NCBI RefSeq assembly: GCF_902141855.1
Contig: NZ_CABFVH010000020.1
Coordinates: 1 to 64,000 of the forward strand
Source of the DNA: Methylobacterium dankookense
Lineage (GTDB): Bacteria > Pseudomonadota > Alphaproteobacteria > Rhizobiales > Beijerinckiaceae
DNA: 64,000 bases
Direction: 5' to 3'
Positions 37,773 to 39,787 of this stretch are shown piece by piece. Made by a program: the position numbers and the translations under genes. The notes under the pieces were generated by a model that had not been told where the DNA came from, made no database searches, and saw only the letters and a program-made list of their open reading frames with translations. Position 1 is the stretch's first letter. Every line of letters starts with the position of its first letter.

Positions 37773-38675
37773 ATGACTGTCACAGACCAGGACCAGCCGG
37801 ACGTCCTCGGCTTCTCGTCTCCCTTCGCCATCGACGAGCCGGCCGACCACACCCTGCCCTTCGTCTTCAACACCGGCCATTCCGGCTCGGTCTACCCGGC
37901 AGCCTTCCTCGCCGCCTCGCGCCTGCAGCCCCTGGCGCTGCGCCGCTCCGAGGACGCCTATGTGGAGCGCCTGTTCGCGCCGGTCGTCGCGATGGGCGCG
38001 CCGCTGCTGAAGGCGAACTTTCCCCGCGCCTATCTCGACGTGAACCGCGAGCCCTACGAGCTCGACCCGCGCATGTTCGACGGGCGCCTGCCGCCCTTCG
38101 CCAACACCCGCTCCATGCGGGTCGCGGGCGGCCTCGGGACGGTGCCGCGGGTCGTCGCCGATGGGCAGGAGATCTATGGCGGCCGCCTTGACGTGGAGGA
38201 GGCGGTGCAGCGCATCGAGCACCTCTACAAGCCCTATCACCGCGCCCTGCGCGCCCTGATCCAGCGCACGTCCCGCAGTTTCGGCCAGTGCTTCCTGATC
38301 GACTGCCACTCAATGCCTTCGTCGAGCCTCGGCCGCGAGGCGGACCCGAAGGCCGACATCGTGCTCGGCGACCGCTTCGGCACCGCCTGCGCGCCGGACC
38401 TGATCGAGCGGTTCGAGGCGGCGTTCCGGACCCGCGGCTTCGCGGTGGTGCGCAACAAGCCCTATGCCGGCGGCTTCATCACCGAGCATTACGGCGAGCC
38501 GAATCTCGGCCGCCACGCGCTCCAGATCGAGATCAACCGCGCCCTCTACATGAACGAGGCGAGCCTCGCCGTGACGAGCGGGTTCGACGCGCTGGTCGAG
38601 GCGCTGAGCTGGGTGGTCGCCACGGTGGCGGAGAGCTACGCCGATCCGATCCCGCGCAGCATCGCGGCGGAGTAG
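37773..38675 (+). CDS. N-formylglutamate amidohydrolase
   Basis: A 300-residue zinc hydrolase of the N-formylglutamate amidohydrolase family (histidine-degradation-type HutG). It has FVFNTGHSGSVYP, FPRAYLDVNREPYELDP, LIDCHSMPS and GGFITEHYG, all family signatures. The ATG at 37773 is the start of homology (MTVTDQDQ). No other hut genes are in the window. A convergent MmgR-like RNA ends 30 bases downstream, a conserved neighbour pair in this class. Confidence 0.9.
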   Translation: MTVTDQDQPDVLGFSSPFAIDEPADHTLPFVFNTGHSGSVYPAAFLAASRLQPLALRRSEDAYVERLFAPVVAMGAPLLKANFPRAYLDVNREPYELDPRMFDGRLPPFANTRSMRVAGGLGTVPRVVADGQEIYGGRLDVEEAVQRIEHLYKPYHRALRALIQRTSRSFGQCFLIDCHSMPSSSLGREADPKADIVLGDRFGTACAPDLIERFEAAFRTRGFAVVRNKPYAGGFITEHYGEPNLGRHALQIEINRALYMNEASLAVTSGFDALVEALSWVVATVAESYADPIPRSIAAE

Positions 38676-38707
38676 CAGCGGTTCGGAGCGGAAGCCGTTG
38701 GCCCAAG

Positions 38708-38790
38708 AAAAAAGGCCACTCCCGAAGGAGCGGCCCGAAGTCTAGGGAGGAAACGCCCAAGAAGGGCTGCGTGACCGCGACGCCATCGCG
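38708..38790 (-). ncRNA. mmgR: MmgR-like (alpha-r8) small RNA
   Basis: The minus strand holds TTTCCTCCCT at 38753-38744, 8 bases before a strong intrinsic terminator (stem 38735-38727 / 38722-38714, TTCG loop, then six T). The 10-mer UUUCCUCCCU in a single-stranded region beside a terminator hairpin is the hallmark of the alphaproteobacterial MmgR family, and MmgR genes commonly neighbour an N-formylglutamate amidohydrolase gene, as here. In Sinorhizobium meliloti MmgR limits polyhydroxybutyrate storage. A second hairpin (CGCGA/TCGCG) lies upstream. The 5' end near 38790 is inferred from the usual ~80-base length. Confidence 0.7.
38714..38735 (-). terminator. Rho-independent terminator of the MmgR-like RNA
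   Basis: On the minus strand GGCCGCTCC pairs with GGAGTGGCC (one G-T) around TTCG and is followed by TTTTTTCTT. This is the best intrinsic terminator in the window and lies about 180 bases beyond the galU stop. Confidence 0.85.
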
Positions 38791-38917
38791 ATCCCGCAAT
38801 GCACAAAGTAAAGTGCGCCGCACAAAATGCAAGGGCGGATCGTCGAGCTTGCATGCATTCGCTGCATGAGACGACGGCGCCGCTTGCAGGAGCCTGCTCA
38901 GCGGCGGCGCCGGGCCA

Positions 38918-39787
38918 TCACGCACCGTTCAGCAAACGCGCGATCTCGGCCTTCAGCGGCTCGGCGAGGTCCGGGCGCTCGAGCGCGTAGGCGAGGTTGG
39001 CGGTGAGGAAGCCGATCTTCGAGCCGGTATCGTAGGTCCGCCCCTCGTAGTGCATGCCGAAGAACTTCTGCTCGGCCATGAGCTTGATCATCGCGTCGGT
39101 CAGCTGGATCTCGCCGCCGGCGCCGGTCTCGCCCTTCTCGAGGATGGTGAAGATCTCGGGCTGGAGGATGTAGCGGCCGGAGATGATGTAATTCGACGGC
39201 GCGGTGCCCTGCTTCGGCTTCTCGACCATGCCGGTGATCTCGAAGGTCTGGCCGAAGGTCTTGCCGACGCTGACGATGCCGTACTGGTGCGTCTCCTCCG
39301 GCTTGACCTCCTCGGTGGCAATGACGTTGCCGCCGTGCCGCTCGTAGGCCGCGAGCATCTGCTGCATGCAGCCCCGGCTCAGCATGTCCGGCAGGAGGAC
39401 GGCGAAGGGCTCGTCGCCGACGATCTCGCGCGCGCACCAGACGGCGTGGCCGAGGCCGAGGGGCGCCTGCTGACGGGTGAAGCTGGTCTGTCCGGCCTTC
39501 GGCAGGTCCTTCTTCAGCTCCTCGTAGGCGGCCTGCTTGCCGCGCTCCTGAAGGGTGCGGTCGAGTTCGTAGGCGATGTCGAAATGATCCTCGATCACCG
39601 CCTTCCCGCGGCCGGTGACGAAGATGAAGTGCTCGATCCCCGCCTCGCGCGCCTCGTCGACCACGTGCTGGACCACGGGGCGGTCCACGACCGTCAGCAT
39701 CTCCTTCGGCACGGCCTTCGTGGCCGGCAGGAAGCGGGTACCGAGACCCGCCACGGGGAGGACGGCCTTGCGGATGGGTTTCATCAT
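38918..39787 (-). CDS. galU: UTP--glucose-1-phosphate uridylyltransferase
   Basis: A 289-residue nucleotidyltransferase making UDP-glucose. It has [60 protein letters not shown] and [10 protein letters not shown], covering the nucleotide-binding and sugar-binding sites. Two adjacent ATG codons (39787, 39784) are both possible. It is divergent from galE across about 185 bases; both serve exopolysaccharide and LPS precursors. Confidence 0.96.

Follow-up and report, generated by a model that had tools for sequence, protein, structure and literature searches.

A member of the alpha-r8/MmgR family of small RNAs beside the N-formylglutamate amidohydrolase gene of Methylobacterium dankookense, and its sibling copies in the genus

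Two described systems are closest to the locus analyzed here, MmgR of Sinorhizobium meliloti and SisA of Caulobacter crescentus. MmgR limits PHB and phasins in S. meliloti according to the passages available of PMC8401924; its effect on phasins is worded differently in those of PMC7143759, where the RNA is reported with three stem-loops within 77 nt. Excerpts of a Caulobacter study (PMC12559287) state that no direct base-pairing target of MmgR is known, that SisA pairs via the same core, and that CrfA acts as a sponge for SisA and its siblings. The same excerpts describe a single copy beside the N-formylglutamate amidohydrolase (FGase) gene in most species, and several copies in many genera. 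For the regulator PhaR, the published box reads NGCN3GC[GA]N3 in Bradyrhizobium (PMC10888616, excerpt) and WNWD2NYGCRNYGCRNH2WNW in S. meliloti (PMC12542648, excerpt). As excerpted from the latter paper, purified S. meliloti PhaR shifted the phaP1, phaP2, phaZ, SMa1961 and mmgR promoters in EMSA, removing or changing the palindromes abolished these shifts, and loss of phaR raised MmgR levels.

Family membership and anatomy of the RNA

We analyzed a window of 64,000 nucleotides from M. dankookense (positions 1 to 64,000 of contig NZ_CABFVH010000020.1), and the features discussed below are collected in Table 1. Using Rfam 15, we obtained a match to RF00519 (suhB, described as mmgR) at 38774-38699 on the minus strand, which covered the full model (positions 1-77 of 77); its score was 70.2 bits, the gathering score being 41, and its E value over both strands of the window was 1.8e-12. 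The other Rfam families gave just four matches between 38400 and 39000 at E up to 1, all far under their cut-offs. The fold of 38800-38706 had a z of -4.49, and none of 200 shuffles was as stable. Because of this E value and this fold z, the element as a whole is far above chance, and it is a genuine member of the alpha-r8/MmgR family. The terminator alone is at chance level (one found in 38500-39000, compared with a mean of 0.6 in shuffles).

An earlier note on this DNA had read the element as an MmgR-type RNA and had proposed a covariance-model check, which the RF00519 score now supplies in favor of that identity. The sequence also bears out the core that it had pointed to (TTTCCTCCCT at 38753-38744, minus strand), the intrinsic terminator with six T (a 10-pair stem at 38736-38713 and a T run at 38713-38708) and the convergence on an FGase gene (PF05013, 257.7 bits; frame end 38675). 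Thus, the FGase-linked element combines a score above the alpha-r8 threshold of 41 bits with a UUUCCUCCCU core, predicted to be single-stranded, 3' of a weak hairpin, a Rho-independent terminator and the frequent FGase linkage of the family.

Table 1. Predicted features of the alpha-r8 locus and its neighbors (window coordinates)
Feature	Position	Strand	Basis or remark
Convergent N-formylglutamate amidohydrolase gene	37773..38675	+	PF05013, 257.7 bits
Predicted full alpha-r8/MmgR transcript	38708..38798	-	5' end +/- ~3 nt, inferred from promoter and SL1
Intrinsic terminator, 10-pair stem and six T	38708..38736	-	Terminator scan, sequence
10-nt UUUCCUCCCU core, anti-Shine-Dalgarno-like	38744..38753	-	Sequence, RF00519 match
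SL2, short GCCC-GGGC hairpin	38755..38767	-	Rfam structure line, fold, conservation
5' stem-loop SL1, 12 pair positions, loop TGGCG	38769..38797	-	Covariation; outside Rfam model
PhaR/AniA-like box 2, TTGTGCATTGCG, overlapping predicted transcription start	38795..38806	-	Box pattern
Putative -10 element TACTTT, 16-nt spacer	38805..38810	-	Tentative, class B conservation
PhaR/AniA-like box 1, TTGTGCGGCGCA, between -35 and -10	38814..38825	-	Published consensus (excerpts of PMC10888616, PMC12542648)
Putative -35 element CTTGCA	38828..38833	-	Class B conservation
Upstream nucleotidyltransferase gene (GalU-like by eye)	38918..39787	-	PF00483; same strand as RNA

The core was unpaired in both the MFE and the centroid structure of the predicted RNA. 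In an alignment of 32 copies, neither the core nor the two arms of SL2 varied, although eight of the ten core letters had been used to select those copies. For SL1, we started from 105 copies gathered in the genus, excluded L005-L007, dropped 8 of the remaining 102 that were off-register, and retained 94/102 in a fixed register, of which 65 were unique. In these 65 sequences, 91.2% of the pairs over the 12 pair positions were standard, whereas sliding the partner by 1-3 columns left 29-54% paired. Changes on both sides of a pair numbered 44, compared with a mean of 9.8 and a maximum of 18 in 500 column shuffles, which ignore the relatedness of the sequences. Outside the genus, the matching 32 nt formed a hairpin in 18/18 family relatives, with z values from -2.0 to -7.1 against mononucleotide shuffles. 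Because MmgR has been reported with three stem-loops in 77 nt (PMC7143759, excerpt), a 5' stem-loop is not itself new to the family; what stands out here is the length of SL1 and its absence from the Rfam model. As judged from sequence comparison, the FGase-linked RNA is probably about 90 nt long, with three stem-loops, and transcribed from its own promoter. This departs from the transcript of about 80 bases expected in the earlier note, whose span of 38708-38790 cuts into the conserved SL1.

An AUG in the SL1 loop opens a frame of 14 residues that ends at a UAG after the core (38786-38742, minus strand), and this frame is open in 92/102 genus copies. That the RNA also encodes this peptide is nevertheless very improbable. 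The copies specify 32 distinct peptides, the mean variation at codon positions 1, 2 and 3 is 0.092, 0.035 and 0.056, so that the third position is not the freest, the frame is shifted in two copies of this genome (L003 and L004), and no clear Shine-Dalgarno stretch precedes the AUG. We rejected the peptide, since the open frame shows no sign of protein-level constraint.

Sibling copies and the FGase linkage

We searched the whole genome with RF00519 and found five matches over the cut-off and two under it (E <= 0.001); the earlier wording of "the" methylobacterial member therefore does not hold. Of the five copies over the cut-off, four have identical cores and terminator stems. An additional alpha-r8-like element, which is degenerate (L079 1479-1564, contig C17), scored 28.7 bits, under the cut-off. 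Over-cut-off matches were present in all 59 genomes of the genus, this one included, and each genome held 4 to 16 matches at E <= 0.001 when those under the cut-off were counted. We also sampled 60 genomes across the family, of which three belong to this genus, and found a match in 58; 50 genomes had one to four matches and 8 had five or more, among them two genomes of one other genus with 14 and 12. Clusters of alpha-r8 copies were also seen in other genera, with five copies in ~1.5 kb (G102), three in ~0.6 kb (G061) and three in ~0.8 kb (L383).

We grouped the 105 genus copies, drawn from the best-scoring matches rather than from all copies, by the similarity of their flanks. Thirty-two formed class B, the FGase/GalU site that includes this locus, 35 belonged to a second conserved site, and the remainder fell into smaller groups or singletons. 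Eighty regions were retrieved, of which 12 (L191-L202) stayed outside the analysis. Of the class B stretches, 27/32 contained an FGase relative and the other 5/32 a GalU relative alone, and a relative of the nucleotidyltransferase was present at 30/32. The FGase-linked RNA is a new member of a known family, and what we find most interesting is that the genus carries the family in multiple copies. Our literature search returned nothing on an FGase-linked alpha-r8 RNA in Methylobacterium; Lagares 2016, reportedly a phylogenetic paper on the alpha-r8 family, and Lagares 2017, said to be a paper on MmgR function, lay outside its coverage, and the multi-copy state may for this reason already be in print. 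In the passages available of it, a Methylorubrum paper cites mmgR as an S. meliloti example (PMC6520949); suhB, Methylobacterium and sRNA co-occur in one text (PMC3091675).

At the locus itself, 32 bases separate the end of the FGase frame from the T run of the RNA. Among the best 80 of 587 relatives of the FGase protein, a list that may omit records very near the source genome, the closest in named genomes were from Methylobacterium, with up to 78% identity, which bears out the genus implied in the earlier note. RF00519 was found at 17 of the 20 FGase loci scanned from these best 80, and a stricter custom pattern detected an alpha-r8 RNA at 53/80. By these counts, the linkage between the RNA and the FGase gene is old.

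Promoter elements and PhaR-type boxes

At the position of the putative -35 element, CTTG was found in 32/32 class B copies and CTTGC in 30. The -10 position read TANNNT in 24/32, the others showing CGATTT, CGAATT, TCATTT or TAATTA; because these eight deviate from TANNNT, the -10 call is tentative. A generic E. coli-type sigma-70 scan found no promoter at the locus, and the promoter call rests on conservation across species. We further searched for PhaR-type boxes in a relaxed form (YGC-N3-GC type) and a strict form (TTGTGC-N3-GC[AG]). Two relaxed boxes at fixed distances were present in 32/32 class B copies, and at least one strict box in 32/32. In control segments of equal length taken 300 bp further upstream, some of which are coding DNA, any relaxed box was found in 14/105, two in 0/105 and a strict box in 0/105. 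A similar picture was obtained for 53 FGase-linked copies from named genomes, of which 20 belong to Methylobacterium/Methylorubrum and 33 to genera such as Microvirga and Chelatococcus, with a strict box in 48/53 and at least two relaxed boxes in 49/53, compared with 0/53 and 0/53 in controls.

These elements bear on two other readings of the locus, in which it would be no more than the 3' end or terminator of the upstream galU-like transcript, or would regulate the FGase mRNA as an antisense RNA. The RNA does share its strand with the galU-like gene and converge on FGase; however, sibling copies occur in loci without relatives of either gene, conserved promoter-like elements and boxes immediately precede the RNA, and the covariance model matches, which makes either alternative hardly credible.

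The distribution of the strict box differed among classes (counts exclude L005-L007). It was found in 31/35 copies of the second class, 5/6 of class D, 2/2 of class G and 4/8 singletons, and in 0/12, 0/4 and 0/3 copies of classes C, E and F, respectively; one relaxed box was present in 12/12 class C copies. Overall, PhaR-type boxes near the RNA start are present in most copies examined and absent in some. Two strict boxes were observed in 30/32 class B and 2/2 class G copies; no copy examined from the remaining groups had two. Among the over-cut-off copies of this genome, the FGase-linked copy has two strict boxes, the copy on contig C19 and one of the two on C4 have one each, and the copy on C47 and the other C4 copy (C4b) have none.

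With four siblings over the cut-off, the FGase-linked copy could be dispensable, and one may ask whether it is simply a redundant member of a dose-dependent group whose single deletion would have no phenotype. The number of copies here and in the genus, the shared core and terminator stem, and the existence of several promoter classes are all in keeping with such redundancy. However, the promoter differences suggest copy-specific timing, with the double strict box confined to classes B and G among the copies examined, and we are inclined to doubt it.

We then compared the boxes with the rest of the genome, where the pattern TTGTGCNNNGCA occurs at 43 sites, compared with 8 for the reversed pattern. 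A strict box lies within 400 bp upstream of 4/6 phasin genes (at -224, -57, -70 and -48) and of none of the other two, the chance expectation at 43 sites in 6.15 Mb being about 0.003 per 400 bp. These phasin tests covered six of eight PF09361 matches and excluded L097, an open frame of 819 aa with no gene called, and L100, a match under the cut-off that shares its contig with L098. A single PhaR gene is present in the genome, and no strict box was found within 400 bp before it. We opened 30 of the 43 strict-box sites, and most adjoin genes without an evident storage role, as judged by eye. The published consensus, the phasin promoters and the binding in S. meliloti support the reading of the boxes as PhaR-type sites.

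Three strict boxes at other sites are recorded here, the gene names being given by eye. One precedes a PTS-IIA-like gene; manX of S. meliloti, a PTS IIA gene, has a listed PhaR site (PMC12542648, excerpt). Another lies in the 5' part of a frame resembling glycogen synthase, a carbon-storage gene (L123, C20:73947). The third precedes a PQQ-dehydrogenase-like gene and lies ~1.6 kb from a cytochrome-like gene whose ribosome-binding site matches the core perfectly over 10 nt (C1:355895, C1:357467; L104, L064).

Candidate targets, proposed mechanism and comparison with known systems

Pairing of the core is possible with ribosome-binding sites rich in purines. We calculated the pairing energy of the core with the mRNAs of the six phasins and phaR, and compared it with that of 40 background genes bearing a Shine-Dalgarno sequence; 5/7 ranked in the lowest 8%. 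This background is small, and gene starts were called by script. The same five mRNAs were in the lowest 10% of a looser background of 120 genes. The remaining 2/7, both phasins with a strict box, were near the background median. Pairing between the core and the phasin and phaR mRNAs is thus suggestive only.

Genome-wide, GGGAGGAAA occurred 32 times, compared with 3 for the reversed pattern, and GGGAGGAN{1,9}ATG occurred 118 times, compared with 22. Such enrichment is expected anyway from Shine-Dalgarno sites. Seven of the 32 GGGAGGAAA sites lie in alpha-r8 RNAs or the degenerate L079 copy and three form an apparent repeated element; 29/32 were inspected, L085 and two sites without a locus being excluded. 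Perfect core matches of 10-13 nt were observed at ribosome-binding sites before transporter-, cytochrome- and hydroxylase-like genes (named by eye). Runs of at least 8 nt were kept in 10/20 cytochrome-like, 2/12 hydroxylase-like and 4/30 transporter-like homologues, this genome included; these counts exclude three weaker second hits obtained with the cytochrome query (L262-L264) and two transporter hits that lacked a locus, and take L275, which was read in a wrong frame, as a miss. The conservation of the three candidates is therefore weak, and because the phasin pairing is suggestive only and the candidate matches are poorly kept, we name no target. Separately, two GGGAGGAA motifs spaced by 30 bases in L087 (C29:11925) might act as a decoy for the core; Rfam families gave no match there up to an E of 0.1.

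These matches are relevant to the possibility that the RNA acts mainly as SisA does, repressing transporters and carbon-uptake genes under plentiful carbon, with any effect on PHB being indirect. SisA has a proven direct target, a TonB-dependent receptor mRNA, whereas none is known for MmgR, and both the perfect matches and the weak phasin pairing are in line with such a role. However, the FGase-linked copy has PhaR-type boxes in common with phasin genes, and the matches are kept in only a fraction of the homologues. We consider a mainly SisA-like role somewhat less likely than not.

The reading that we consider likely is that of a trans-acting alpha-r8 RNA, repressed by PhaR and aided by Hfq, that restrains carbon storage via pairing of its core. 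It builds on the family membership, the predicted structure with its covariation, the copy number, the conservation of the boxes, and the PhaR and phasin genes together with the single Hfq gene of this genome. Free PhaR (AniA), off the PHB granules, would sit on the two palindrome-like promoter boxes and repress the RNA; PHB accumulation would titrate PhaR, and the RNA would then be made together with the phasins. With Hfq, the unpaired core would pair with purine-rich ribosome-binding sites and lower translation, so that mRNAs for carbon storage and carbon use, perhaps including those of phasins, would be dampened in a feedback restraining storage. For the operator step, support comes from sequence comparison and from the binding experiments in S. 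meliloti, whereas the target step draws on genetic work in S. meliloti (PMC8401924, excerpt) and Caulobacter base-pairing work; transcription, PhaR binding at this locus, Hfq dependence, targets and phenotype are what we infer. The carbon-storage role suggested in the earlier note gains indirect support from the conserved PhaR-type boxes, found also before four of the six phasin genes tested, and an effect on PHB in this organism would be expected on this reading.

An extension of this reading, which we offer tentatively and would not yet back over its negation, is that in Methylobacterium the MmgR gene was multiplied into a set of siblings, with 4 to 16 matches per genome, and that the PHB granule, by titrating PhaR, sets how much of this anti-Shine-Dalgarno RNA is made in total from its several genes to restrain phasins and carbon-use mRNAs. 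If true, a feedback so far known from one S. meliloti copy would exist here in a gene-dosage form. Methylobacterium serves as a model in studies of methylotrophy, of leaf colonisation and of the production of bioplastic (PHB), and the FGase-linked RNA and its siblings are candidates for a link between PHB granules, PhaR and translation, in which the number of siblings makes dose and redundancy directly testable. The covarying SL1 and the two PhaR-type boxes of the FGase-linked copies add anatomy that is absent from the current Rfam model.

Compared with the known systems, the locus shares with MmgR (SmelC689) of S. meliloti, as described in the available excerpts, the Rfam family, the core, the terminator, the three stem-loops and a PhaR-type promoter site. 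The predicted RNA is longer, however, at about 90 nt compared with 77, with an SL1 of 29 nt; its promoter has two boxes; and its genome holds several copies, whereas S. meliloti has one (PMC12559287, excerpt). Two boxes of the GC-N3-GC type near the core promoter are likewise found, according to the published excerpts, at phaP1 of Bradyrhizobium diazoefficiens and at phaP1 and phaP2 of S. meliloti. In contrast to those PhaR-repressed phasin promoters, the boxes here precede an RNA gene and not a protein gene, as they do at S. meliloti mmgR. With SisA of C. crescentus, the locus has in common the FGase neighbor, the core motif and a set of siblings with differing promoters (PMC12559287, excerpt).
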